Shown here one piece after another: positions 14,685 through 43,038 of a stretch of 43,905 bases of DNA (position 1 is the stretch's first letter; each line of letters opens with the position of its first letter). A program made the position numbers and the translations under genes. The DNA lies in assembly GCA_013152895.1 (NCBI GenBank), contig JAADFN010000078.1:1-43905 (forward strand), in the 5' to 3' direction. Below the pieces are notes generated by a model. The model saw only the letters and a list, made by a program, of their open reading frames with translations, ran no database searches and was not told the DNA's origin. Source of the stretch: Acidobacteriota bacterium. GTDB lineage: Bacteria > Acidobacteriota > Thermoanaerobaculia > Thermoanaerobaculales > Sulfomarinibacteraceae.

Positions 14685-15440
14685 TCACCTCCTCTGCCGC
14701 AGCGAGAACCGGCCGCGGATCTGGACGTCCACCTCGAAGCGGTCGGCGAGTCCCCGGCGCTCGAGCGCCCGGGCGATGGCCCTGCGGGCGCATTGGATCT
14801 GCTCGACCCTCATCCTGTGGGAGACGCTCTCCCGGTGGCTGCGGTAGTAGTAGAGCGGCTTCTTCACGTGCCGCACCTCCGCGGCCTCCGAAAGGCGCAG
14901 GCACAGGTCGTAGTCCTCGGCGCACTCGAAGGACTCGTCGATGCCACCGACCCGGTCGAAGACCGAGCGCCGGATGAGGCGGAAGTGGAAGGTCATGAAG
15001 TCCAGCAGCAGCCGGTCCCTCGAATACGGGATGCGGCAGCGGCGGCCGTAGCCCCGCGCCCTGCCGGACTCGTCGATGACCACGTAGTCGGTGTAGACGA
15101 GGCCCACGTCGGGTTCCGCGTCGAGCACCGCCGCGGTCTCCTCGAGCGCCGTGGGGGCGAGCAGGTCGTCGCTGTCCACCCAGCCGAGGTAGTCGCCCGA
15201 GGTCTCCGCAATCGCCGCCTTCAGGGCCGGGGTCCGTCCCCGGTGCTCTGAGGCCGTCACGCGCACGCGGTCGTCCAGCTTGGCGTAGTCACGGGCGATC
15301 TCCACGGAGCGGTCGGTGGAACCGTCGTCCCAGATCAGCAGCTCGAAGTCCCGCCGGGTCTGCGCCAGCACGCTCTCCACGGCCCGTTCCAGGTACCGCT
15401 CCCTGTTGAAGACCGTCATGATGATCGAGATCGCCGCCAT
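14685..15440 (-). CDS. Family 2 glycosyltransferase
   Basis: MAAISIIMTVFNRERYLERAVESVLAQTRRDFELLIWDDGSTDRSVEIARDYAKLDDRVRV...DYLGWVDSDDLLAPTALEE: GT2 hallmark motifs. Confidence 0.9.
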   Translation of the reverse strand: MAAISIIMTVFNRERYLERAVESVLAQTRRDFELLIWDDGSTDRSVEIARDYAKLDDRVRVTASEHRGRTPALKAAIAETSGDYLGWVDSDDLLAPTALEETAAVLDAEPDVGLVYTDYVVIDESGRARGYGRRCRIPYSRDRLLLDFMTFHFRLIRRSVFDRVGGIDESFECAEDYDLCLRLSEAAEVRHVKKPLYYYRSHRESVSHRMRVEQIQCARRAIARALERRGLADRFEVDVQIRGRFSLRQRR

Positions 15441-15451
15441 CACGCACTCCG

Positions 15452-16501
15452 TCAGGTGTTGATCAGGACCTTGTTGGCCGAGCGGATGAGGATGTTGCCC
15501 ATCACGCCGTCCATGAGGATCACGCTGCCGGCCTTGTCGGTGGCCTGGATCCGTTCCCGGCCTGCGGCCGCGTCCATCACCACCACCTGACCGGCCTTGT
15601 CGGTCAGGCGGATCATCTCCCTGCCGGCGGTGGAGTCGATGAGGATCTCCTGGACGCCGCCCAGACCCCAGATGTGAACCTTCTCCCGGCCCCTGGTGGT
15701 GTCGATGAGGATCTTCTGCCAGCGGGCCCGGGTCTTGTCGCAGGACTGGATGTGGATCTTCTCCTTGTCCTTCCATGCCTCCCAGCGCATGAACTGGCGG
15801 CACAGGTCGGTGATCTCGATCCTGGCGCGCCGGTCCTTGACGTCGGAATCGATGTCGAGCTGGTCGCCCCGCTCGGCGTCCCTTTCACCGCGGCGCCGCG
15901 CGTTGCCCACCTGGACGTCGCGCTTGACCCGGCATTCCATGTGGAGGATCTGCCCGCCGCGGTCGATGACCTTGAGGAATTCCTCCTCGTCGCGGTCGTC
16001 CACCACGATGGTGTGGCCGGTCTCGGTCTTCAGCAGCACCTTCCGCCGCGGACAGTAGTACGGCGGATGGCCGTGGTATTTCTTGTGTTCCAGGTCGTCG
16101 TGGCGGTCGGGTCGGTGCTCGACCTTGTCCTCGCAGTCACGGCAGGTGGGATCGCTGCAGAGCCGCTTCGATTCCTCCGGTTGCTCACCAGGGTTGCTTT
16201 TCGCCAGCCACACCCCGGTCCAGATGGGATACTGGACGTTGCCTCCCTCGAACTCGGCCCAGACCGAAGCCCCTTCCTCGGGGACCAGGAACACGCCCAC
16301 GTCCTCGTTGCCGCCGTAGGGAAAGCAGGGCCAGGCCCACTCGGACCAGTTCTCCCGGCCGGTGCCGAGCACGGCCGGGATCTCCAGCCTGCACCGGCCG
16401 AGCCGTTCCGGGTCGTTGTTGTCGCGCACGAACGCCCGGTACTTCCCGTACCAGCGGTTCCTGTAGCGCTCCTCGTGCTGTCGGTCCTGGGTTTCGATCA
16501 T
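15452..16501 (-). CDS. gp5/VgrG-like baseplate spike (OB fold plus C-terminal beta-helix)
   Basis: 349 aa; YGKYRAFVRDNNDPERLGRCRLEIPAVLG...WPCFPYGGNEDVGVFLVPEEGASVWAEFEGGNVQYPIWTGVW, then repeated 'DKAGQVVVMDAAAGRERIQATDKAGSVILMD' needle. Confidence 0.9.
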   Translation of the reverse strand: MIETQDRQHEERYRNRWYGKYRAFVRDNNDPERLGRCRLEIPAVLGTGRENWSEWAWPCFPYGGNEDVGVFLVPEEGASVWAEFEGGNVQYPIWTGVWLAKSNPGEQPEESKRLCSDPTCRDCEDKVEHRPDRHDDLEHKKYHGHPPYYCPRRKVLLKTETGHTIVVDDRDEEEFLKVIDRGGQILHMECRVKRDVQVGNARRRGERDAERGDQLDIDSDVKDRRARIEITDLCRQFMRWEAWKDKEKIHIQSCDKTRARWQKILIDTTRGREKVHIWGLGGVQEILIDSTAGREMIRLTDKAGQVVVMDAAAGRERIQATDKAGSVILMDGVMGNILIRSANKVLINT

Positions 16502-27708: not shown

Positions 27709-29013
27709 TTGAACGATAGCAAGATTACACTACTTCTTGGGGCAGGAGCATCGATACCATTCCTTTGTCGAGACGATGCGCGTTTAACCACAGACTACTT
27801 AACGAAAGCCTTGCTCGATAAGAATAATTGGGATGCTATTGTTCAGGAGCATAACCAGTATAAGAAAGATCCAAACGTAATAGATAAACTAGACGCTCAA
27901 GACTGTTCGTTTGTTGTCCTGAGAATAGAGCAATATCTTAGACAGAACTCTCGTTTTCAGAGTGTGAACTTCGAATACATTATTCATCTTCTAGACAAGA
28001 TATCGGACTACCTATCAGCAAATGGGCCTTATGAATATAGCAACATCGATGAGATCCTAATAAACTTCTTTGGAGAAAGTGATTCCATGCTACAGGAGTA
28101 CGCTTTTAGAAACTCAGATAAAGGTGGTTGGAGATATGCGCCGTTCTTGGCCCGCGAGGTAATATGCAGGGCCATCTTGAACTTGTGGGATTCCAAAAGA
28201 GCACAAAAAGGCATAAACTCAACAGTGTCGTTTATTTCTAATCTGCTAGCACGCTTTCGCTCTGTAAATATCTATTCCTTGAATTACGATCCGTTGGTAT
28301 ACGAGGCAATTAAAAACAATAGAACAATCACAACTGGGTTTGACCAAAACAAGGGATTCCTCCCAGAATTTTTCTACGGTAGCCAGAGCGTGGTGGCTTT
28401 TGTTCACGGCCATGTGGGTTTTATTCCTCTAGGCAAGAAAATGCGACTGAGCGATGACTATACTGGTGCTCAAGCAGAAAGGATGCGGGGTGTCTTTAAT
28501 AACTCTGTAAACTCTACAAGATATTTCGATATAGGCGCCAAAGGACTTCATTATAATACTTACTTGGTAACAGGGCTGGATAAGATTGACAGTTTCGCGG
28601 AGAACCCCTTCGCCAGCTATCTTCATAGGTTCGGAAAGGACATAATTGAGAGCAATTGCATCATCATGGTTGGCTTGTCTCTCGGTGACCATCATCTCAA
28701 TGCTTTCATGACAAACGCAACGCTCATATCCGACAAAAAACTATTATTTGTCACAAAGACCGACGTTGCCACGATAAAGAACTACTTTCAAGTCCCTTCT
28801 CCAAACGGAAACATTATTTTCAGGTTGTGGACTCTTTTCAGAGATTCGATAACAGTTACCCCGAGACAAGGGAGCGATCCCTTTCAAGAGCATTTGGAGA
28901 GCCTATACGATTCCCTATCAAGCAAGGGATATGGCAAGCTTACAAATCATATCCTCCTTTACATCAAGGGAACAGAAGAATTTTATAAGGAGGATATCAA
29001 AAGTTTGCTGTAA
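27709..29013 (+). CDS. SIR2-like (SIR2_2-type) NAD-binding protein, candidate antiphage/moron gene
   Basis: TTG start with AGGAGG upstream; 434 aa with LLLGAGAS near the N-terminus, SLNYDPL, FVHGHVGF and IIMVGLSLGDHHL. Visibly AT-rich compared with both flanks and on the opposite strand. Confidence 0.85.
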   Translation: MNDSKITLLLGAGASIPFLCRDDARLTTDYLTKALLDKNNWDAIVQEHNQYKKDPNVIDKLDAQDCSFVVLRIEQYLRQNSRFQSVNFEYIIHLLDKISDYLSANGPYEYSNIDEILINFFGESDSMLQEYAFRNSDKGGWRYAPFLAREVICRAILNLWDSKRAQKGINSTVSFISNLLARFRSVNIYSLNYDPLVYEAIKNNRTITTGFDQNKGFLPEFFYGSQSVVAFVHGHVGFIPLGKKMRLSDDYTGAQAERMRGVFNNSVNSTRYFDIGAKGLHYNTYLVTGLDKIDSFAENPFASYLHRFGKDIIESNCIIMVGLSLGDHHLNAFMTNATLISDKKLLFVTKTDVATIKNYFQVPSPNGNIIFRLWTLFRDSITVTPRQGSDPFQEHLESLYDSLSSKGYGKLTNHILLYIKGTEEFYKEDIKSLL

Positions 29014-30705: not shown

Positions 30706-31569
30706 TCAGCCGAGCACCTTGATCTTGGCCAGGATGTCCGGGCGGGTGATCCCCTGGCCCAGCTCGGACCACACCAGCCAGCCGGTCTTGAAGCGGGTCT
30801 TCTGCTCGATGGCCTCGGTCTTGAGGTTCTCCCGCACGGGCATCTTGCCCACTTCCTCGTCGGGAATGAGCAGGATCTCGTCCATGGCCGCGGCCGCGGT
30901 CAGCAGGATGCCGCCGGTGCCGTAGTTCTTGATCACGCCCTTGGCGCGCAGCTCGGCCTTGGTCTGGGGGTCCAGGTTCCAGCTGCGCAGATCGTTGAAC
31001 CTCCGGCCGCGCATCACGATGTACTTCACCGACAGCTCCAGGTCCTCGATGATGGAGACCGCCTCGTTGAGCGCCTCCTCGGTCAGGGTGGTGCCGGTGA
31101 CCTCCACCGTGTTGGCCGCGGGGACCGCGGCGGAGATCACGGTGATGGTCCGCTTGTCGATCTCCTTGCGGATCTCGTCGGCCGCGGAGGTCTGGATGTC
31201 CATGAGCGTCCCGATGTTCCCGTTCTTGAGCACCGAGACGTCCACCATGGGCGCGGAGTGGATGCGATGGGTGGGGAACTCCACCTCTTCCTTGCCCAGC
31301 TCCTGCTCCTGGGCCTCGCCCTCGTTGCTGATCCAGTAGGCCTTGACCTTGGGCTTCTTCTGGTAGATGGGCCGCTCGCCCTTGGGCAGGGTGTGCCGGG
31401 TCAGGAGCAGCGAGGAGATCTCCTTGCGCTTGATCTCCTGCTCGATGGGCGCCGCGATGGCGGCGGCCAGCGCCCGCATCCCCTCGGGGGACTCGAGCGC
31501 CTCGCTCATCAGGCGCGCCATGGTCTCCATGTATTCCTGGCTGTGCACGTTCACCTGGGTCGTCTCCAT
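30706..31569 (-). CDS. Major capsid protein
   Basis: 287 aa, downstream of scaffold and decoration genes; ISSLLLTRHTLPKGERPIYQKKPKVKAYWISNEGEAQEQELGKEEVEFPTHRIHSAPMVDVSVLKNG... Confidence 0.75.
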   Translation of the reverse strand: METTQVNVHSQEYMETMARLMSEALESPEGMRALAAAIAAPIEQEIKRKEISSLLLTRHTLPKGERPIYQKKPKVKAYWISNEGEAQEQELGKEEVEFPTHRIHSAPMVDVSVLKNGNIGTLMDIQTSAADEIRKEIDKRTITVISAAVPAANTVEVTGTTLTEEALNEAVSIIEDLELSVKYIVMRGRRFNDLRSWNLDPQTKAELRAKGVIKNYGTGGILLTAAAAMDEILLIPDEEVGKMPVRENLKTEAIEQKTRFKTGWLVWSELGQGITRPDILAKIKVLG

Positions 31570-31588: not shown

Positions 31589-31951
31589 TCAGATCAACAG
31601 GCGGAACTTGAGCGTCCCGCCGGAGACGGAGATGGCCCGGGCGATGACTTCTTCGCCGGCCTGCACGCCCGCCGTGAGCTTGCCGTTGGCCGAGACCTTC
31701 AGGTCGTCGCCGGGATTGACGGTCCCCTCGAAGACGTCGGTCTCGTACACGCCGCCCATGCAGTAGATGCCGGGCATCTCTCCGTTCTTGTAGTCCTTGA
31801 TCAGGATGCCGAAGGACTTGACCGTCGGATCGGTGTTCACAGCGAACAGGTCGTTGCCGACGAGCGTGACCACCTGCCCGAGCTGGCCGTCCCCCTGCAT
31901 GTAGCCGTCGCCGTAGGCGAGGCCTCGATGGTTCGGGTTGATGTAAGGCAT
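31589..31951 (-). CDS. Capsid decoration-like protein
   Basis: 120 aa small beta-rich protein between scaffold and capsid; DDLKVSANGKLTAGVQAGEEVIARAISVSGGTLKFRLLI. Confidence 0.6.
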   Translation of the reverse strand: MPYINPNHRGLAYGDGYMQGDGQLGQVVTLVGNDLFAVNTDPTVKSFGILIKDYKNGEMPGIYCMGGVYETDVFEGTVNPGDDLKVSANGKLTAGVQAGEEVIARAISVSGGTLKFRLLI

Positions 31952-31967: not shown

Positions 31968-32549
31968 TCAGTTGGTCTGGACCGGCTCGCCGGTCGCCAG
32001 GGCTACGCGGTGGCGGTACGCGGCCATGAAGCCCTGCCGCAGCCGCTCCTCGAGGCCCGTCTTCCGGTCGTCCACGTCCCTGGGGCGCACGCCGGCGTCG
32101 CTGCGCATCGGGGGGTCTTCGTCCGCCGCCTTGGCCTTTCCCTTGTCCGGTCCGCCGCCCGGGTCCTCTTCCTCCTTCCCCGCCGCGGCGCGGACCCGAG
32201 CCATCCGCTCGTAGGCCGCCTCGGTGGCCGCGAAGGCGTCGTCGGAAAGCCCGGCCAGCCGGGCCAGCTCCTTCTCCCGCTCCTCGTCGCTGCCGAAGGA
32301 GACACCCTGCTTCTCCAGCCTGCGCAGCAGCTTCTGGGCACGGGCGCGGCTGGCCGCGGCCTTGCGTTCCGCCTCCAGCTCTTCCACCCGCTTCTGCAGG
32401 GCCAGAACCTGCTGCTTGAGCTCCTTGTTCTCCTTCTCCAGCTCCTTGACGCGGGTCTTGTCGTCCGCGGCGTCGCCGCCGCCCCCGCCGTCCTTCTTCT
32501 TGGCGGCCTCGACCGCCTGTTCCTCTTGCTCTTTCCGCTTCTCATCCAT
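31968..32549 (-). CDS. Nested in-frame scaffold protein from internal start
   Basis: ATG at 32549 (MDEKRKEQEEQAVEAAKKKDGG...) preceded by AAGGAGGT with a 6-nt spacer; the region is a coiled-coil scaffold-like segment. Confidence 0.65.
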   Translation of the reverse strand: MDEKRKEQEEQAVEAAKKKDGGGGGDAADDKTRVKELEKENKELKQQVLALQKRVEELEAERKAAASRARAQKLLRRLEKQGVSFGSDEEREKELARLAGLSDDAFAATEAAYERMARVRAAAGKEEEDPGGGPDKGKAKAADEDPPMRSDAGVRPRDVDDRKTGLEERLRQGFMAAYRHRVALATGEPVQTN

Positions 32550-35500
32550 CTGTGGACCTCCTTCGTCTTGGGTTGCCGAAACCGTCTCCCGCGCCGCCGC
32601 GACCTGGGTGATGCGCGCGTTCTCGTCGGCGCCCTTGCGGTCGAGCAGGCCGAGGCCGGTGAACGTCACGCCGTGCAGGATCTCGAAGACGGGCTTGCCC
32701 TGGAACGTGCCGCCCTTGTACTTGCGCAGGTGGATGCAGTAGTCATTCTTCGACGTCACCCGCCTGCCGCAGATGGAGCATTCGCCCTCCTCGTAGTCGC
32801 ACTCCATCGAGACCTGGGTGATGATGCCCTTGCGGATCAGCTTGTACGCCAGCTGAGCGTGCGGACTGTCCGACACGTAGAGCTCGCCGACGCACTCGAT
32901 GCGGCCGCCGCTGTCGTCCTCGATAAAGTCCGCGGCCACGATCCCGCCGACGATGTCCGTGAAATCCTGTGAGTGCTTGAGGTCGATCTTCTTGTTGACC
33001 GCGGTCATGTAACGCGCCGCCAGCTCCTCCGGCGTGAAGTGGTCGCCGTTCTTGTTGGTGCCGGCGCGGCACAGGATGAAACCGAACTGGGGGTCGCCCG
33101 CGTCCCGGGCCGGGTCGGCCGCCTCCGCGCACAGCTCGCCGTCCTGCGCGAACTTCAGCTCCACCGGGATCGAGGTGTGGCAGCCCGTGGCGAGCGAGGC
33201 CGCCGCCTTGGACCTGGGCGTGCTCCGCGCCCGGGAGGCGATGAAGAGCAGTTCCCGTGCGTGCTTGCCCTCCCGCCCGATGTCCTTGGCGATGTTGTAG
33301 TCCACCTCCATGCCTCGGACCCGGACCTGGCCGAAATGCTCGGAGAAGATCTCCCGGATGCCGTCCTCGCGGGGATAGGCGCGGTCACGGTAGGAAAGGA
33401 TCACGGTGCCGTACCTGCCGCGCGACCCGGAGGCGAGGGACTCCATCAGGGCCTTGATCGACTCCTTGGTGTAGCGGGTCCGGGAAGGAAAGTTGCGTCG
33501 TGGCGTGGGCTTGATCTCCTTGTCCGCCCAGCGGGTCATGAGCCCCTCGACGAAGTGGAGCGAGTCTTCGTAGTCGTTCGAGCCGAACTCGGTCACGTAG
33601 GGCGGATCGAGGTAGAGCACGTCGGCGCCGAACCGCCGGACGGCCTCCACGGCGTCCAGGTTGAAGGCCTTGCACTCCTGGCCGTTGTCGAACACCAGGC
33701 TGTTGAGCTGGCGTACCGAACGGCGGAAAGACTCGATGAACTTGGAGAGCGGCGGGTTGGAGAGCTGCGACTGCTCCAGGCTCGCCTCCGCCTCCAGCCC
33801 GGCCTTGCGATGCATCTTCGAGCGCGAGAACTGCCCGAAAGCACTCTTGGCTTTGACGGTGTTCCCCAGCGCCGCCAGCGCCAGGTCCTTCTTGTACCCG
33901 GGCAGCTTCTGGATGTTGGCCCAGACCTGGTCCAGCCACCGCAGCACGGGCTTGGTGTAGTAGTAACCGTGGAAGTGGTCCACGATGAAGGTCCCCGCGT
34001 CCGGGTTCGGCGCGAGGATCCCTTCCACGTCCTCCTCGGTGAGCTTCTCGTGGGAGTTCTCGACCACGGCTCGCGCCAGGTGGTACGGGAACCGCAACAG
34101 GTCGTTGGCGATGACCTTGAATCCCTTGCGCTTGAAGTGATAGGCCACGTTCGCGCCGCCCGAGAAGGCGTCCAGGATGCTCCGCGCGTCCTTGGGCACG
34201 TGGCGTTCGATCCATCCCAGCATCAGGTACTTGCTGCCCATGAACCCGGTGACGCGCACCGCGTCCACCTTGCCGGCCTGGCAGGTGAGGAGGTCCACGG
34301 CCTCGCCGAGGGGCGCGTCGGCCAGGGCCTGCATGTTGGTCTCGACGCGCAGGGCGGCCTCGACGGCCGCGGAGGCCTCGTGCTCCTTGATCCATTCCTT
34401 GGCCCGCTCCATGGTCCAGCCGTCCGGGTTGCGCTCGGTCTTGCGGGCGAACCGGTAGGCCTGAAGCACCATGGCGCGGGGATCGTGTCCCTCCGGCACG
34501 AACTCCTTCTTGAGCCTGCCGATGATGATGGAGACCCCATCGACGCCCTCGAGCTTCTTGCGCCGGAAGCTGTCCGGCTCGAACTCGTCGGGGTCGCGCA
34601 CCCGGTAGCGGATCTCGTTCTCCGTCTCCTCCCAGATGGCCCGGGAGGTCATGGCTCCGGCGGCCTGTGCGGCTTCCGCAGCGGCCGTCCGGCCCTTGGC
34701 CTGCCGGCAGATGAAGAGGCGCTCCTTGGCGTGGGATGCGTCGCCGTGGCGCGAGGTGATGGCGTAATGGTGATCGTGGGAGCGCATGGACGACTCCCGG
34801 CCCAGCGAGGCGATGATCTTCCGCATCTGCTGTTCGCTGGGGTGGGCGTGGTCCCGGTAGGAGATGAGCCAGTACGGGATGTGCCGGGCGTTGCCGAGGA
34901 AGGTCTCGAAGAACTCCCCGGCGTTGGCCCGGGTCACGGTCCTGTGGTCCGTCTCGTAATGCCGGGTCTTGGAGTCCTCGACGAGCTTCAGTCCCTTCCA
35001 GTAGGTCATCAACCCTTCTACGAAGTGGTAGGCCTTCTCGTAGTTGGTGGTCGAGAACTCCGTGGCGTAGGGCGGATCGAAGTAGGCCAGATCCGCCTTC
35101 ACCTCCGGCAGGAACTCGTTCACGTCCTTCCGGCAGGCCTTGCACTCCTTGCCGTTGTCGAAGACCAGCGCGTTGATGCGGGCCACGTTCTTGCGGAACC
35201 GCTCCCTGAACTCCTCCGGCGTGTCCTCGCGCTTGCCGTACCGGGTGGACGAGGAGAAGTGCCCGAAACCGCCCTTGCCGGACATGCAGGTCTTGCCCAG
35301 GGCGAAGAGGGCGATGTCCTTCTTGTAACCCTCGAGCTTGTCGATGTTGGCGCGGATGGTGTCGATCAGCCCGTGGACGCCCTTGGCGAAGAAGATGCCC
35401 TTGAAGTTGTCCCGGACGAAGGTGCCCGCCTTGGGGTTGTCGGCGAGCAGCATCTCCAGGTCGTCGTCGGTGAGGCGGACGTTGCGGTTCTCGATGATGG

Positions 35501-35846
35501 CCCGGGCGGCGTGGTAGCAGTAGCGCAGCCGGTCGTTGGCCAGGACCTGCAGGCCCTTGGTCTTGTACATGTAGGCCACTACGCCCGAGCCCGAGAAGGC
35601 GTCGACGACCGACTCCACGTCCTCCGGCGTGTGCTTCCAGATCCAGTCGACCAGCTTCTGCTTCGACCCGATGTAGTTGGTGATGTACTTCGGCCGCTTG
35701 TCCGGCGGCAGTTCCTCGGTGACGAGCTCCCCGGCCCGGGCTTCAAGGGCCTCGAAGTCCAGGTCCAGGGTGGCGTCCGTCTCCAGGAGGAACGCCAGCC
35801 TTTCGCGGTCGGTGGCGAAAAGTTCCATCCGGCTCTCCGGTCTCAT
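31968..35846 (-). CDS. Fusion protein: D12-class adenine methyltransferase, linker, second D12-class methyltransferase, prohead protease-like domain, scaffold
   Basis: Single 1292-codon ORF with two sets of methyltransferase motifs (YIGSK/DAFSGSG/DPPYATEFS and FMGSK/DAFSGG/DPPYVTEFG), then GTNKNGDHFTPEELAARYM...LKHSQDFTDIVGGIVAADF...ITQVSMECDY, then a coiled-coil Glu/Lys-rich scaffold-like tail. Confidence 0.85.
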   Translation of the reverse strand: MRPESRMELFATDRERLAFLLETDATLDLDFEALEARAGELVTEELPPDKRPKYITNYIGSKQKLVDWIWKHTPEDVESVVDAFSGSGVVAYMYKTKGLQVLANDRLRYCYHAARAIIENRNVRLTDDDLEMLLADNPKAGTFVRDNFKGIFFAKGVHGLIDTIRANIDKLEGYKKDIALFALGKTCMSGKGGFGHFSSSTRYGKREDTPEEFRERFRKNVARINALVFDNGKECKACRKDVNEFLPEVKADLAYFDPPYATEFSTTNYEKAYHFVEGLMTYWKGLKLVEDSKTRHYETDHRTVTRANAGEFFETFLGNARHIPYWLISYRDHAHPSEQQMRKIIASLGRESSMRSHDHHYAITSRHGDASHAKERLFICRQAKGRTAAAEAAQAAGAMTSRAIWEETENEIRYRVRDPDEFEPDSFRRKKLEGVDGVSIIIGRLKKEFVPEGHDPRAMVLQAYRFARKTERNPDGWTMERAKEWIKEHEASAAVEAALRVETNMQALADAPLGEAVDLLTCQAGKVDAVRVTGFMGSKYLMLGWIERHVPKDARSILDAFSGGANVAYHFKRKGFKVIANDLLRFPYHLARAVVENSHEKLTEEDVEGILAPNPDAGTFIVDHFHGYYYTKPVLRWLDQVWANIQKLPGYKKDLALAALGNTVKAKSAFGQFSRSKMHRKAGLEAEASLEQSQLSNPPLSKFIESFRRSVRQLNSLVFDNGQECKAFNLDAVEAVRRFGADVLYLDPPYVTEFGSNDYEDSLHFVEGLMTRWADKEIKPTPRRNFPSRTRYTKESIKALMESLASGSRGRYGTVILSYRDRAYPREDGIREIFSEHFGQVRVRGMEVDYNIAKDIGREGKHARELLFIASRARSTPRSKAAASLATGCHTSIPVELKFAQDGELCAEAADPARDAGDPQFGFILCRAGTNKNGDHFTPEELAARYMTAVNKKIDLKHSQDFTDIVGGIVAADFIEDDSGGRIECVGELYVSDSPHAQLAYKLIRKGIITQVSMECDYEEGECSICGRRVTSKNDYCIHLRKYKGGTFQGKPVFEILHGVTFTGLGLLDRKGADENARITQVAAARETVSATQDEGGPQMDEKRKEQEEQAVEAAKKKDGGGGGDAADDKTRVKELEKENKELKQQVLALQKRVEELEAERKAAASRARAQKLLRRLEKQGVSFGSDEEREKELARLAGLSDDAFAATEAAYERMARVRAAAGKEEEDPGGGPDKGKAKAADEDPPMRSDAGVRPRDVDDRKTGLEERLRQGFMAAYRHRVALATGEPVQTN

Positions 35847-35906
35847 GTCATGACATGGCCGCCCTCGTGACCGCCTCGCGGCGGACAGAGGGATGCCGTC
35901 GGTGGA

Positions 35907-36758: not shown

Positions 36759-39700
36759 TCACCTCACCAGGATGATGTCCTCGACCTTCCGGCCGTCGGG
36801 CAGCCTGGATATCCTGCGCTTCCGGAACACATCCAGCAGCCGCCGCCTCTCCCGCTCGCTCCCCACGACGATCACGTCGATGTTGTCGAGCAGGGTGACC
36901 GAGTACTTGAAGATCGTCTCGTTGCTGCTCCGCCTTGCGAACTTCTTCCACTCCGCCGGCGTGCTCCCGCGGTGGTTGGAGACGTAGCCGTCACGCACCC
37001 GGCCGAAGGCGTCGTGGTCGTAACTGATGGCGTCCATGCGGCGCAGGAGCCGCTTCTTGAAGTAGAGCCCGGTCTCCCGCGATCCCCCGGCGGTGGGGAG
37101 CTTCCGGATGCGGGTGAAGAAGTAGGTGGCCCCGCCGGTGTCCATGTCCGCCTCCGGCGACATGCCCCCGACGGGGATGCCGGCGCGCAGCTTCTCCACC
37201 GTGCTCACCATCGCGCCGTTGTTCTCCAGCACCGTGTCGATGAAGGACGGCAGGTCGTCGCCGTTGGTAAGCCGGTGGTAGAGGCCGTAGCCCTTCATCT
37301 GTCTCTCCAGATCCTCGTCCGAGATGTCGAAACGGTACTGGTGCCTGTAACCGGCCCGCTTCCCCGGATCCTTGAAGGCCAGCTGGTACTCGCCCATGGG
37401 GTTGTAGCCTGGCATCCGGGTCAGGTCCTTCACGCCGAGGCGCCGCTCCCAGAAACCGCGCATCTCCCGGATGCGCTCCTCCTTGCTCGCCGCGCGGCGG
37501 TCCAGCTCCTTGATCAGGCGCCTGTACTCCGGATCCTGGTCCACCTTGGTCAGATAGGCCTGCTTGTGGAGATAGAGCAGCTCCGCGTCCTGCGGTGTGG
37601 CCGCCCCGGCCTTGAGGCCGAGGGATTCCATGTGATCCAGGGCCCGCTCGAGGCTCTTGGCGTCGGGACGGTCCGGGAGGATCAGCTCGAACTCGCCCCG
37701 CTGGGCGTAGAGGTTCTTCTCCGACCAGGGGCGGTAGACCGCGCGCACTCCGTCGCCGAAGTCGATCTCGTACTGCTCGCCGGCCTTCATGCTGCGCCCG
37801 CGGAAGAGGGCCGAGTTGTCCGCCGCCTCGTCCACCACGACGAGTTCGCCGCCCCTGAGTTCCCTCCTGGGCTGGAGCACCTTCGTGCGCCGCACGGTGA
37901 ACGGGACGTCCTTCGGCTTCCTCTTGCGGGTGGCGCGCTTCTTCAGGTAGGTCTCGAAACGCTCGTCGATGGGCTTCTTGTCGCGGGCCGCCTGCTGGAC
38001 CTTCTCGATCCACTCGATGTAGGTCTGCGCCATCTCCCGCACGTCCGGGTCGTCCGACCCGCTCAACCGCCTGAGGGCCTTCAGGTGGTCCGCGGCCTTC
38101 TTGAGGGTCGCCTGGTTATACTTGTGGTCCTGGGCGTGGTGGTTGACGGTCTTCACCGCGGCGAGGATGTCGTTTGCGAAGAGGTCCTCCGGGAGCGGCT
38201 CGCCCACCCGCGCCGCCGCCGTGTCGATGCCCGCCTTGCGCAGGGCGGCGAGCAGTTTCTCCTCCGCCTCGGGCCGGACCTTCATCTTCACCACCGTGCG
38301 CTTGCGGCCCTTGAAGGTCTCCACGAAGACCAGGGCGTTCTGGTCCTCGATGTCGTCCTCGTCGAAGGGCAGCACCTTGCCTTGCCACCCGAGCGAACGC
38401 ACCTCCTCGAGGAGCGCTTCCTCGGCCGGACCCAGCTTCCCCTTGGGAACGGCCTCCAGGACGTCCTCGAAGCGGAAGTCCTTCCTGCCCAGGACGTCCG
38501 CGTAGAAGGCCTCGAAATCCCGCCGCAGGTTGCGCTTGCGCGCCAGGGCCGTCTCGTAGAAGGCCTGCTTGCGCGCCTCGTCCCGGCCGAAACGGCCTTC
38601 CGCGTAGGGTCGCAGGATGGCCAGGTAGTCCTCGTCCGGGATCTTCTCGACCTCGCGGATGTAGCGCAGCGTCACCGAGGGGTCGACCTCGACCTTGCCC
38701 TCTTTGACGGCGCGGAAGAGCGTGTTGTAGAAGGGCTCCTGCTCGCCGTAGCGGGCGTTCGGGTGGTAGTCGATGGAGAGGCGGTCCTCGCCCAGGTACT
38801 TGAAGAGCTGCCCCTTGTCGATGCCGTAGACCTTCCCGTCCCTGGCCCGCAGGAACTGCTTCGCGTGACCGTCGTGGTTCGAGATCAGCCAGTCGATCAC
38901 GTGCTCCCGCTGGATCTGCTCGATCTCGAGCGTGGTGAGGTCGACCGGGTCAACGCCGGCGAAATCGAACCGGCTCTTCAGGTCGGTCCGCCACCTCTGG
39001 ATGGAGCCCAGCCGGCCGTTCAGCCGGATGGTGCGGACCTCGATGGCGTCCGGATCGATGAGCCGTCCGATCTTGTAGGCCGCCTCCTCACCGTGGGCGA
39101 TGAACTCGTCCCCGGACCGCTCGACCGGCTTGAACAACCACCTGGCGCCGGTCTCGTCGGTCCAGAACTCCTTGGCGTGCGCTCCGCCCACCTGGGCCTT
39201 GCCGGCGAACTTGAAGTTCTCCGGCTTTCCTTTCTCGCGCCACGCGGCGTCCACCGCCTCGAACTCCGACCCCTTCTTGGCGAAGACGGGTTCCGGGGCC
39301 GACGGCGGTTCCGGGGGCGGAGGCTGTTTCTTCGCCGGCTTGGGCTTCGGAGCCTTCTTCTTGCCGCCGTGTTTCTCCAGCCACGCCGCGTGCTTCTTCT
39401 CGATGCCGGCCTTGGCCGCCTCCACCTTGGCCGGGTCGGTCTCGGTGAAGAGGGTGACCAGCTCGTCCTTGTTCGCCCATTGCCAGTGCTTGAGCTTGGT
39501 CTCCTTGGCCAGGGTCTTGAGGTCGCCGACCTTCATGGCCGCGACCTGGTCGTGGAAGAGCTTCTTCTTGAGGGCGATCTCCTTGGCGTGGGCCTCGAGG
39601 AGTTCCTGGGGCAGTCCGGCTCCCCCGGCGAGCGTCGATTCCGCCTCCTTGACGGCGGACAGGAAGTCGGCGTATCCCGCCGGCGACTCGGGCACGACCA

Positions 39701-41336
39701 CCTTCGCGGCCGCCTGCTCGAGGGTGTCTTTCGCCTTCTTGAGCGCTTCTTTCTTGGCGGCCTCGACCGCTTCCTGCTTGGCCTTCTCGGCCAGTTCCTC
39801 GCCGGCGGCCTTCTGCAGGGCCTTGATGAGTTGCTGCTTGTTCTTGAGGGGGCCGATGTGGTGTTTCTTCTTGGCCGCGATGAGGGCCTTGCCCTTCAGG
39901 CCCGAGTGGTCCACGCCCGGCTCCAGCTCGTCCAGCAGCTCGATCACGTCCTGCTTGGTCATGTTGAGGGAGATGCCCTTGGCCTTGGCCATCTCCTTGA
40001 GCTCGGCCACCGTCAGGTCCTGCAGCCCGCCCGGCGCCGGGACCTTCTTCAACTGCTCCGCCAGCTGCTGGGCCTGTTTCAGGGAGGCCTGCTTCTCCGC
40101 CAGGAGCTTGACCAGCTCGTCCTTGGAGCGGAGGAGGCCGATCTTGTGCTGCTTGAGCTTCGCCTTGAGCGCCGCGCCCGAGAGGGTCGAGTGGTCCACC
40201 CCGGGCTCGACCTGGTCCAGCAGCTTGATGAATTCGGCCTTCGTGCGGGCGATGGAGACGCCGTTCTGCTTGGCCAGCGTCTGGAGCTGTTTCACGGTGA
40301 GGGTGTTCAGGTCCGCGATCTGGCCGCTCTCGAAGGCGGCCTTGAGCTTGGCATCCTCCTCGGCCTTCGCCTTCGCCTGCTCTTCGATGGCCTGGGGCGG
40401 AAGGATGCACACCGCTGGTTCGGCCGCCGCCTTGGCCCCCAGCTCTCCGCCGCATATCACCAGGGGCCAGGCCACGACGCTGGTGCAGCGGCAGTTGGGA
40501 TGCGCGGGCTGCGGGGGGAAGCGGTCGGTGTCGAAGACCTTGCCGTCCAGCGGGCCGCACACCGGGCAGACCCGCTCGTCCTCCATGGTCATCCATTCGA
40601 GCTTCCGGACCCCGACCCGACGGTGGAACTTGATCCGTCCCTGGTTGTGGGCGCGCAGCACCTCGGTGCGGGCGATGACCTCCATCCGGTACTGCGCCTT
40701 GCTGAACACCCTGGAACCCGCGTGCCGGAAGGACTCCGGATCCTTCACGACGCGGCCGAGATCCCTGACGATGTCCTCGACGCCCTTGCCGGTGGCGATC
40801 CCGGAGAACACGGCGCGCTTGATGCCGTCGGCCAGTTCCCGGTGGACGTCACCGGCCAGCACCAGGTTGTAGTTGGCCATGAAGTCCAGGGCGTCGGTGT
40901 CCACCAGGGTGAACACGCGGGTGGCGAGCTTGTCGATGCCCTCCGGGGTGAGGTCCCGGTAGAAGGGCATCCGGGCCAGGGCGAGCTCGTCGATGCCGCG
41001 GCGGATGCCGAGACGGAACGCCTCCCGGGCCGTCCTGCGGAACGTCAGCGTCTGCTCCCGGCGGAGCGTGCGCATGATCTCCCGCAACTCGGCGTCGAGC
41101 TTCCTGAGCCCTTCCAGAGCGGCGAGCTTGTTGTCCGGGAGGGAGCCGAGGCTCTTGTAGTGGAGGATGGCCCGGCGGACCTGCTCCTCGGCTTCGGCGA
41201 GCGCACGGGTCAGTTCGGCCACCACCTGTTCGGTGTAAAGGTTGCGGGCGCGGACGCTCCGTTCCGTGGCGCGCCGGATGGCCTCGGCCTGGGAGAGGGG
41301 TTTCCGTGCAGCCAGCGCCCCGATCACGACCCGCAC
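36759..41336 (-). CDS. Giant MuF-type minor head protein with SAP/Rho-N-like repeats, HipA/PI-kinase-like domain and unknown C-terminal domain
   Basis: Probable GTG start 41336 overlapping the portal end. MuF block: FSKAQYRMEVIARTEVLRAHNQGRIKFHRRVGVRKLEWMTMEDERVCPVCGPLDGKVFDTDRFPPQPAHPNCRC. Kinase-like: GARWLFKP ... LISNHDGHAKQFLRARDGKVYGIDKGQ. Confidence 0.8.
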   Translation of the reverse strand: MRVVIGALAARKPLSQAEAIRRATERSVRARNLYTEQVVAELTRALAEAEEQVRRAILHYKSLGSLPDNKLAALEGLRKLDAELREIMRTLRREQTLTFRRTAREAFRLGIRRGIDELALARMPFYRDLTPEGIDKLATRVFTLVDTDALDFMANYNLVLAGDVHRELADGIKRAVFSGIATGKGVEDIVRDLGRVVKDPESFRHAGSRVFSKAQYRMEVIARTEVLRAHNQGRIKFHRRVGVRKLEWMTMEDERVCPVCGPLDGKVFDTDRFPPQPAHPNCRCTSVVAWPLVICGGELGAKAAAEPAVCILPPQAIEEQAKAKAEEDAKLKAAFESGQIADLNTLTVKQLQTLAKQNGVSIARTKAEFIKLLDQVEPGVDHSTLSGAALKAKLKQHKIGLLRSKDELVKLLAEKQASLKQAQQLAEQLKKVPAPGGLQDLTVAELKEMAKAKGISLNMTKQDVIELLDELEPGVDHSGLKGKALIAAKKKHHIGPLKNKQQLIKALQKAAGEELAEKAKQEAVEAAKKEALKKAKDTLEQAAAKVVVPESPAGYADFLSAVKEAESTLAGGAGLPQELLEAHAKEIALKKKLFHDQVAAMKVGDLKTLAKETKLKHWQWANKDELVTLFTETDPAKVEAAKAGIEKKHAAWLEKHGGKKKAPKPKPAKKQPPPPEPPSAPEPVFAKKGSEFEAVDAAWREKGKPENFKFAGKAQVGGAHAKEFWTDETGARWLFKPVERSGDEFIAHGEEAAYKIGRLIDPDAIEVRTIRLNGRLGSIQRWRTDLKSRFDFAGVDPVDLTTLEIEQIQREHVIDWLISNHDGHAKQFLRARDGKVYGIDKGQLFKYLGEDRLSIDYHPNARYGEQEPFYNTLFRAVKEGKVEVDPSVTLRYIREVEKIPDEDYLAILRPYAEGRFGRDEARKQAFYETALARKRNLRRDFEAFYADVLGRKDFRFEDVLEAVPKGKLGPAEEALLEEVRSLGWQGKVLPFDEDDIEDQNALVFVETFKGRKRTVVKMKVRPEAEEKLLAALRKAGIDTAAARVGEPLPEDLFANDILAAVKTVNHHAQDHKYNQATLKKAADHLKALRRLSGSDDPDVREMAQTYIEWIEKVQQAARDKKPIDERFETYLKKRATRKRKPKDVPFTVRRTKVLQPRRELRGGELVVVDEAADNSALFRGRSMKAGEQYEIDFGDGVRAVYRPWSEKNLYAQRGEFELILPDRPDAKSLERALDHMESLGLKAGAATPQDAELLYLHKQAYLTKVDQDPEYRRLIKELDRRAASKEERIREMRGFWERRLGVKDLTRMPGYNPMGEYQLAFKDPGKRAGYRHQYRFDISDEDLERQMKGYGLYHRLTNGDDLPSFIDTVLENNGAMVSTVEKLRAGIPVGGMSPEADMDTGGATYFFTRIRKLPTAGGSRETGLYFKKRLLRRMDAISYDHDAFGRVRDGYVSNHRGSTPAEWKKFARRSSNETIFKYSVTLLDNIDVIVVGSERERRRLLDVFRKRRISRLPDGRKVEDIILVR

Positions 41337-42964
41337 TCCCGGCACGGAGCCGAAGCCACGCTGCCGGGTGCGGGGGATGCGGCCGGGGTGTCGCCGCCGC
41401 CGGCCTCTTCCGGAGACACCTGGGCGGGCGTCCTCGGGTCGAAGAACCGGCAGACGGACGAGTCGAAGGTCGTCTCCGCCCGGTGCACGCGGCAGAAGTT
41501 CCGTGCCTCGTCGAAATGGATGCAGGCGTCGCAAACCTCGTCCGCCGTGTCCGCCCTGGCGAACGGGCCGCCCCACGAACCTTCCGCGCGGCCGGCACCG
41601 GAGCGGTTCTTCTCCCGGTCCAGCCCCAGCATCTCCTGGGCGGTCTCCACGCTCATGATGCCGGCCATGACCATGTCCACGATGGGCTTGACCTGCTTCT
41701 CATCGAGCAGGTCCACCGACTTGCGCTCGTTCTCACGGTTGGCCGCCTCGATGTCGGGGTCGAGGTCCATCTTGAGCTGGAGGCTGGAGCGGCTGATGAG
41801 CTTGCGGTCGTACAGCTCGATGAGCAGGCGCTTGAAGTCCACCGCGTCCGACGGGTCGAGGTCGTTGAAGAGGAACTGGAGCGTCTTGTCCTTGTAGCCC
41901 TTGAGCTCCAGCCAGTCGTCGAAGACCCAGGCGAGGATGTCGCGGGCGGCCTGCTTAATCTCCCGGATCATCACCAGCATCTTCTGCAGGCTCACCGAGG
42001 CGGTGGCGAAGTTCGGCCCGTCGCCGGTGACCAGGGAACGCGAGAGCCCCAAGGCGACGACGATGTCCTCCTTCACCTCCTTGACCTTGTCCTCGACGTT
42101 GAGGACCTGGCCCTCGGTGCCGTGGGTCTCCACCGTGACGTAGAAGGGCACGACCAGGCCGCTCTTGAGGTCCATCTTGTTGACCATGTCGCGGACCTGC
42201 TCGAGCATCTTCTGGTCGGGCATGACCATCTTCTGGCCGAAGGCCCCGCCCACCTTGAGCAGGCGGAACGGGGTGGCCCAGCGCTTGGCGATGGCCTGCT
42301 CGGCGCGGCGGTAGTCCCGGAGCAGCTCGATGGACTGGAACGCGGGCAGGACCAGCGAGTTGCCCCGCGGGGAGAAGGCGGGCGCATCCCACTTGAGGTG
42401 GAGCACCTGGTCGACCGGCAGGTCCAGTCCTTCGCCGCCCCCGTCGTCCGGGTACTGCCGCGCCTCGACCAGCTGGCCCTGGGCGTACTTCACCTTCACC
42501 GAGACGGGGTTGACGCAGATGACCTCCTCGATGTCTTTGCCGTCCTTGGTGTAGCGCTTGAAACCGACGGCATCGCCCTTGACCAGCAGCTGGAGGATCA
42601 TGTCCTTGACGAAGGCGGAGACGCCGAGCCGATCGGCGAGTGCTATCGCCTCCCACTTCACGTCCTCGTCGTCGCTGGTGATCTTGATCTCGTCGCCCAC
42701 GGCGAAGGTGCGCCAGGAGTTGACGCAGTTCTTCACCAGCGGCTCCTCGACGTAGTACTCCCACGCCTTTCGGGCACGCTCCTCCCAGGTCGAGGGGATG
42801 GCCTCGGTGGCGTTCACCCGGCTGAAGACGGAGGGGTCCAGGGCCGCGGCCGCCGCCAGCGGGACGACGACCACGCCCTGGGTCTGCGTATCCTGCAGCC
42901 CGGCGGCCCCGCCCGTCGCGGCGGGCGGTTCTTCCGGATGAGGGGGATTGCCTTGTCTTTCCAC
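41324..42964 (-). CDS. Portal protein with C-terminal Cys-rich motif
   Basis: About 545-559 aa (start at 42964 GTG or 43003 ATG not resolved); RRAEQAIAKRWATPFRLLKVGG...EDIVVALGLSRSLVTGDGPNFATASVSLQKMLVMIREIKQ; between terminase and MuF protein. Confidence 0.88.
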   Translation of the reverse strand: MERQGNPPHPEEPPAATGGAAGLQDTQTQGVVVVPLAAAAALDPSVFSRVNATEAIPSTWEERARKAWEYYVEEPLVKNCVNSWRTFAVGDEIKITSDDEDVKWEAIALADRLGVSAFVKDMILQLLVKGDAVGFKRYTKDGKDIEEVICVNPVSVKVKYAQGQLVEARQYPDDGGGEGLDLPVDQVLHLKWDAPAFSPRGNSLVLPAFQSIELLRDYRRAEQAIAKRWATPFRLLKVGGAFGQKMVMPDQKMLEQVRDMVNKMDLKSGLVVPFYVTVETHGTEGQVLNVEDKVKEVKEDIVVALGLSRSLVTGDGPNFATASVSLQKMLVMIREIKQAARDILAWVFDDWLELKGYKDKTLQFLFNDLDPSDAVDFKRLLIELYDRKLISRSSLQLKMDLDPDIEAANRENERKSVDLLDEKQVKPIVDMVMAGIMSVETAQEMLGLDREKNRSGAGRAEGSWGGPFARADTADEVCDACIHFDEARNFCRVHRAETTFDSSVCRFFDPRTPAQVSPEEAGGGDTPAASPAPGSVASAPCRECGS

Positions 42965-43038
42965 CGGTGACCTCGCGGTTTTCTGGCCGTGAGAGCGCCA
43001 CATTCGCGCCGTGTGCGCTAAAGCCGCGCCCTACGGGT

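Follow-up and report, generated by a model that had tools for sequence, protein, structure and literature searches.

In phage lambda (C/Nu3), phage Mu (I/Z) and the herpesviruses (UL26/UL26.5), a protease gene and a nested scaffold gene share a C-terminal scaffold. To our knowledge the Mu I/Z, KS10 and lambda C proteases carry no methyltransferase (MTase), unlike the gene described here, which lies in a 43,905-nt stretch of DNA (the window). In Mu I/Z, KS10 gp28/gp29 and lambda C/Nu3, as in this gene, the 3' part of the protease gene encodes the scaffold in the same frame, and the nested gene lies ahead of the capsid gene. In-frame embedded scaffolds occur in KS10 and many other phages (PMC2628397).

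The P1 virion contains about 40 copies of DarB, and 30 DarB residues suffice to package a reporter (PMC9024508). The fusion protein can be likened to DarB of the Dar system, a large head-packaged MTase protein thought to be injected for anti-restriction. However, DarB joins a gamma-class MTase to an SNF2 helicase, whereas the fusion has D12 MTases and no helicase was matched in it by Pfam or PHROG profile search. DarB is also directed to the capsid by a signal at its N-terminus and, unlike in the fusion, the P1 prohead protease is a separate gene. In the multi-domain polyvalent phage proteins, conflict enzymes occur together with an assemblin-like peptidase at the C-terminus, and most of the MTases are of the DarB type (Iyer et al. 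2017, PMC5512222). Like them, the fusion unites a conflict enzyme with domains of the virion in a single chain, but their peptidase is always C-terminal, whereas here a nested scaffold follows the protease, and the MTases here are of the D12 class rather than DarB-like. Tandem type IIS MTases encoded beside AlwI-family endonucleases (phi1605, L203) are related to both modules of the fusion. They differ in that both phage modules resemble the same half, are joined to capsid-assembly domains and have no restriction enzyme with them.

PHROG 27806 (798 aa, labelled 'DNA methyltransferase') has the same MTase-protease-scaffold order as the fusion. The window protein matches it with 1380 bits, the best stretch being residues 532-1288, and the protease and scaffold pieces each match it alone. 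The profile has one MTase and its label mentions no protease, scaffold or nested start, an annotation that the present analysis corrects. Already known are the one-MTase form in this family, polyvalent proteins with C-terminal assemblin, and MTases that are packaged, P1 DarB among them. The sequence-only reading, which knew of no such arrangement, is only partly sustained, and to call the fusion without any precedent would go too far; still, the open-licence PMC papers searched included none that describes a prohead protease with a nested scaffold joined to D12 MTases.

The fused gene occupies the Mu I/Z slot

A single uninterrupted minus-strand ORF at 31968-35846 encodes 1292 aa, as seen in the ORF list and its translation and as had been read from the sequence before. 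The frame stands, but its start probably lies further in. The likely full-length start is M7 at 35828; the relatives begin here with M(E/Q)LFATD, and GGAG lies six bases upstream of the start codon, so that the whole fused gene runs from 31968 to 35828 (minus strand, as do all features below unless noted). At this start only a 4-base Shine-Dalgarno (SD) sequence such as GGAG is usual (66/89 sequences). An N-terminal segment beginning M(E/Q)LFATD (residues 7-54; 35685-35828) is conserved in the alignment of relatives.

Directly downstream are a cement/decoration-like protein (31589-31951), recognized by conserved synteny, and the major capsid protein (MCP; 30706-31569), recognized by profile search and synteny. 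The upstream neighbor is a MuF minor head protein (36759-41576; profile search and synteny), and a Mu-like portal protein lies at 41324-43003 (profile search). Among relatives, cement or MCP directly follows the fusion gene in 106/114 loci, and MuF or its neighbors precede it in 88/114. The fusion gene thus occupies the protease/scaffold place between MuF and cement/MCP that Mu I/Z occupies. No second gene for a protease or a scaffold was noticed in the window. Locus synteny and the scans bear out the earlier view that MTases, protease and scaffold are linked covalently, and the gene for this polypeptide sits where procapsid proteins are encoded. The neighbors of the fusion are head and tail genes, with no cognate restriction endonuclease beside it, and in this the locus does not resemble a type IIS restriction-modification system.

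Several other genes of the window deserve mention. The MuF protein, which may be as long as 1605 aa, contains repeated SAP/Rho_N-like segments, matches a HipA-like kinase weakly and itself looks like a polyvalent head protein. A 1641-aa open frame on the opposite strand (36972-41897, plus) is probably a by-product of GC-rich codon use. A plus-strand gene at 27709-29013, amid minus-strand tail and neck genes, has a weak SIR2-like match (PADLOC Aga_SIR2, E=8.6e-12) and is a possible prophage-borne defense gene. A GtrB-like glycosyltransferase is encoded in the tail-end region (14685-15803, minus).

Methyltransferase, protease and scaffold domains

Pfam MethyltransfD12 (PF02086) matches the protein twice (E=6.8e-46 overall; 157.5 bits against a gathering cut-off of 22), with 94.9 and 67 bits for the modules taken separately. 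Module 1 (residues 55-395; 34662-35684) has GSK, DAFSGSG and DPPY; module 2 (residues 506-880; 33207-34331) has GSK, DAFSGGA and DPPY, its motif I being an FSGGAN variant. The modules are 41% identical to each other. The GSK, DAFSG and DPPY motifs are thus kept in both, and the prior description of two D12-class modules bearing them agrees with the Pfam matches. By score and by SAM-binding and DPPY motifs, both are predicted to be D12-class N6-adenine DNA MTases. Among relatives DPPY is found in all MTase modules save one cut by a contig end, and GSK/GNK with DPPY is conserved in nearly all complete modules. PADLOC labels both modules type II MTases, and both are about 31-35% identical to the C-terminal half of two-domain D12 type IIS MTases of the AlwI family. 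Because this identity is 31-35%, any target specificity would be a guess. Solved structures searched by sequence gave no match for either MTase.

Between the MTases is a further domain of about 95 aa, LINK (residues 399-492; 34371-34652); the earlier domain list holds for the two MTases, protease and scaffold but had left it out. Alone, LINK has no Pfam or PHROG match. Its predicted fold is weakly similar to parts of two long viral proteins and of one that is named prohead protease. Its conserved motifs are IWEETENEIRYRV and GWTxExAKEWI, and the family databases searched do not contain the domain.

The protease domain (residues 889-1090; 32577-33182) was assigned to the assemblin/S78 type by fold, alignment and gene position. 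The candidate catalytic residues singled out in the sequence-only reading, His958 in LKHSQDF (32973-32975) and the candidate nucleophile Ser1013 in TQVSMEC (32808-32810), are invariant in an alignment of 30 diverse relatives. The same alignment contains a C-x2-C...C-x-H Cys/His set resembling a zinc knuckle, which is putative. Profile scores fall below the cut-offs both for Pfam S78 (PF04586; 14.8 bits against 21) and for TIGR01543 (14.4 against 59; 18.9 for relative L097), and the protease profile searched against solved structures by sequence returned only zinc fingers and noise. The AlphaFold2 model (pLDDT 86) nevertheless matches phage G gp19 in BFVD at E=2.8e-17, along with many annotated prohead proteases; the best solved structure in the PDB is pseudorabies virus pUL26N, a marginal match (E=3.7e-3, TM 0.39). 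Of the checks proposed earlier, then, the Pfam D12 search and the structural model succeeded, while the prohead-protease profile search fell short and the predicted fold made the assignment. The conserved His and Ser in an assemblin-type predicted fold are as expected of an S78/assemblin prohead protease, and this protease is divergent in sequence. Phage G gp19 is 300 aa without MTase, encoded a few genes after the portal, and therefore the protease family exists unfused outside this lineage. The linker between MTase and protease is variable in length and Ala/Ser-rich.

The scaffold is a nested gene of 193 aa with a coiled coil, beginning at Met1100 (31968-32549) with an internal SD and start codon. 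The sequence reads AAGGAGG-7 nt-ATG, with the SD at 32557-32563 and the ATG at 32549-32547. A C-terminal coiled-coil scaffold had been described correctly, but a conserved internal start had been missed, which opens the scaffold, not the protease. An SD and start codon are present at the scaffold column in 97/110 sequences, the codon varying among ATG, GTG and TTG, and in several of the most divergent sequences, too, a strong start lies some 193-196 residues before the C-terminus. The Gly codon within the internal SD is GGA in 97/97, compared with 14% of Gly codons overall in these genes. This bias is a constraint on the nucleotide sequence for which there is no need at the protein level. Judged by SD, the full-length start is weaker than the internal one. 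An in-frame SD start opening a coiled-coil scaffold, as found here, is the mark of a putative nested protease/scaffold gene. The protease, as had been stated, lacks a conserved start of its own after module 2: with SD strength scored by a simple motif list, a scan of 101 loci found any candidate start ahead of it in 14 and a strong one in 3, none conserved.

Distribution and inheritance of the fusion

Whole-protein scans gave 79 viral and 45 genome loci. The MTase is in the same ORF in 101/110 sequences having protease and scaffold (window included), although the counted loci are related, some nearly identical, and the counts overstate independent evidence. The remaining sequences are mostly at contig ends or have frame breaks. 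When IMG/VR was scanned with the protease alone, MTase-fused ORFs were again found wherever the upstream region was intact. The search for homologous fusions that had been suggested thus recovered the same MTase-protease-scaffold fusion in about 100 loci, and the search for relatives with the domains as separate genes revealed no such group, nor any intact split version, among the loci scanned. L063, L069, L189 and L093 were considered as true split relatives and rejected, since one or more frame breaks explain each.

The architectures observed were MT1-LINK-MT2-protease-scaffold (about 1290 aa), MT1-MT2-protease-scaffold (about 1180 aa), forms with an extra insert ahead of the protease (about 1310 aa), MT1-LINK-protease-scaffold (L066) and MT-protease-scaffold with one MTase (about 800 aa). 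Intact fusions are present in the complete chromosomes of three species, Desulfosarcina alkanivorans, D. widdelii and Sulfidibacter corallicola; other hosts are drafts or MAGs from several other phyla. Isolates of Desulfobulbus rhabdoformis and Ectothiorhodospira shaposhnikovii also have a prophage with the gene. The protease is rare: a sample of 297 genomes from the phylum of the host contains it in a single case, the genome from which the window comes. The D. alkanivorans chromosome (L090, L097) contains two related prophage head modules less than 100 kb apart, one with two MTases and the other with a single MTase.

One MTase-less locus, L118, was considered as the ancestral form. Of LINK it retains only the second half, followed by protease and scaffold, and the DNA ahead of these bears no relation to the other loci. 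L118 is therefore read as a truncated or rearranged locus rather than an ancestral one. Directly upstream of this truncated gene, in a Hydrogenedentes MAG, is a TOTE-type primase-like ORF (L118:1970-5521).

In a tree of MTase modules all second modules form one clade (100/100), and the whole phage set forms one clade apart from restriction-modification relatives. The latter are mostly C-terminal halves of tandem D12 enzymes, and the phage phi1605 tandem relative adjoins an AlwI-family endonuclease. MT1 identity tracks MCP identity (r=0.84); the corresponding MT2 comparison was left unused as it is meaningless for one-MTase loci. The dN/dS of the MTase modules is about 0.02-0.12, close to protease values (MT1, 0.025-0.118; MT2, 0.03-0.10, taken from two-MTase pairs as the MT2 output for single-MTase pairs repeats the same module). 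With r=0.84 and dN/dS this low, the MTase has therefore been inherited with the head genes under purifying selection. The fusion is old, widespread and conserved in a Mu-like phage lineage.

Proposed role of the methyltransferases in the head

We propose that the head-maturation protease of a Mu-like phage lineage gained one or two N-terminal type II adenine-MTase modules. One frame would then give two products: the strong internal start would yield the 193-aa scaffold, presumably in abundance, and the weak upstream start the full-length MTase-protease-scaffold in smaller amounts. Because its C-terminal scaffold is shared with the abundant free scaffold, the full-length protein would co-assemble through this common tail and be carried into the procapsid; by analogy with lambda C/Nu3, Mu I/Z and herpesvirus UL26/UL26.5, this is where the MTase should be placed. 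There the protease would cleave the scaffold and probably also the linkers of its own chain, after which the MTase would stay in the head or close to it. The MTase would most likely serve anti-restriction by traveling with the DNA and methylating it on entry to the next host, following a DarB-like logic, or alternatively by methylating DNA just before or during packaging. Two points favor anti-restriction: the likeness of the MTases to restriction-modification enzymes, and the packaging of DarB by P1. The resemblance of the modules to type IIS MTases likewise suggests anti-restriction, most likely by an enzyme that is packaged. We place the probability of this reading, a procapsid-carried maturation protease/scaffold gene with N-terminal type II MTases most likely serving anti-restriction, at about 0.6. 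A further proposal, to which we give slightly less than an even chance, is that modification is built into head assembly: the procapsid-borne MTase would either methylate the genome while it is packaged or be freed by the protease for injection. If so, capsid maturation and anti-restriction would be one machine.

Attachment of an enzyme to the protease-scaffold suggests a general route for loading enzymes into capsids by means of the scaffold tail. Confirmation would tie restriction evasion directly to head maturation, add a class of enzymes located inside the virions of phages that infect sulfate reducers and hosts from several other phyla, and provide a natural model for designs that package proteins in capsids.

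It is unlikely, although worth keeping in mind, that the MTase instead methylates phage DNA ahead of packaging, either in the cytoplasm late in infection or once it has been cut from the protein prior to assembly, in which case the fusion would serve only late, coordinated expression. Dam-type phage MTases usually act on replicating DNA, and the variable Ala/Ser-rich linker is compatible with early cleavage. However, genes can be co-expressed without being joined covalently, the fusion has been kept over deep divergence and the loci scanned include no intact split version, and co-assembly is what the C-terminal scaffold leads one to expect. Methylation coupled to packaging, in which the MTase would work inside the procapsid on incoming DNA, is more improbable still. 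The same fused anatomy would allow it and protease-scaffold proteins sit inside procapsids before DNA entry, but MTase turnover is probably slow compared with packaging, with few copies facing many sites. That the modules are structural or regulatory leftovers without catalysis is very doubtful: the FSGGAN variant in module 2 would fit, but the DPPY and GSK/GNK conservation and dN/dS of about 0.03-0.1 argue for retained catalysis. Finally, an assembly error or local accident joining neighboring genes can be dismissed, for although the source is a MAG contig and a few relatives have frame breaks (L063, L069, L189), the fusion is intact in complete isolate chromosomes (L090, L091, L097, L117) as well as in those roughly 100 loci; it is real, neither chance nor assembly error.

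A 965-aa open frame lies antisense to the fusion (32973-35870, plus) and is probably a by-product of GC-rich codon use.
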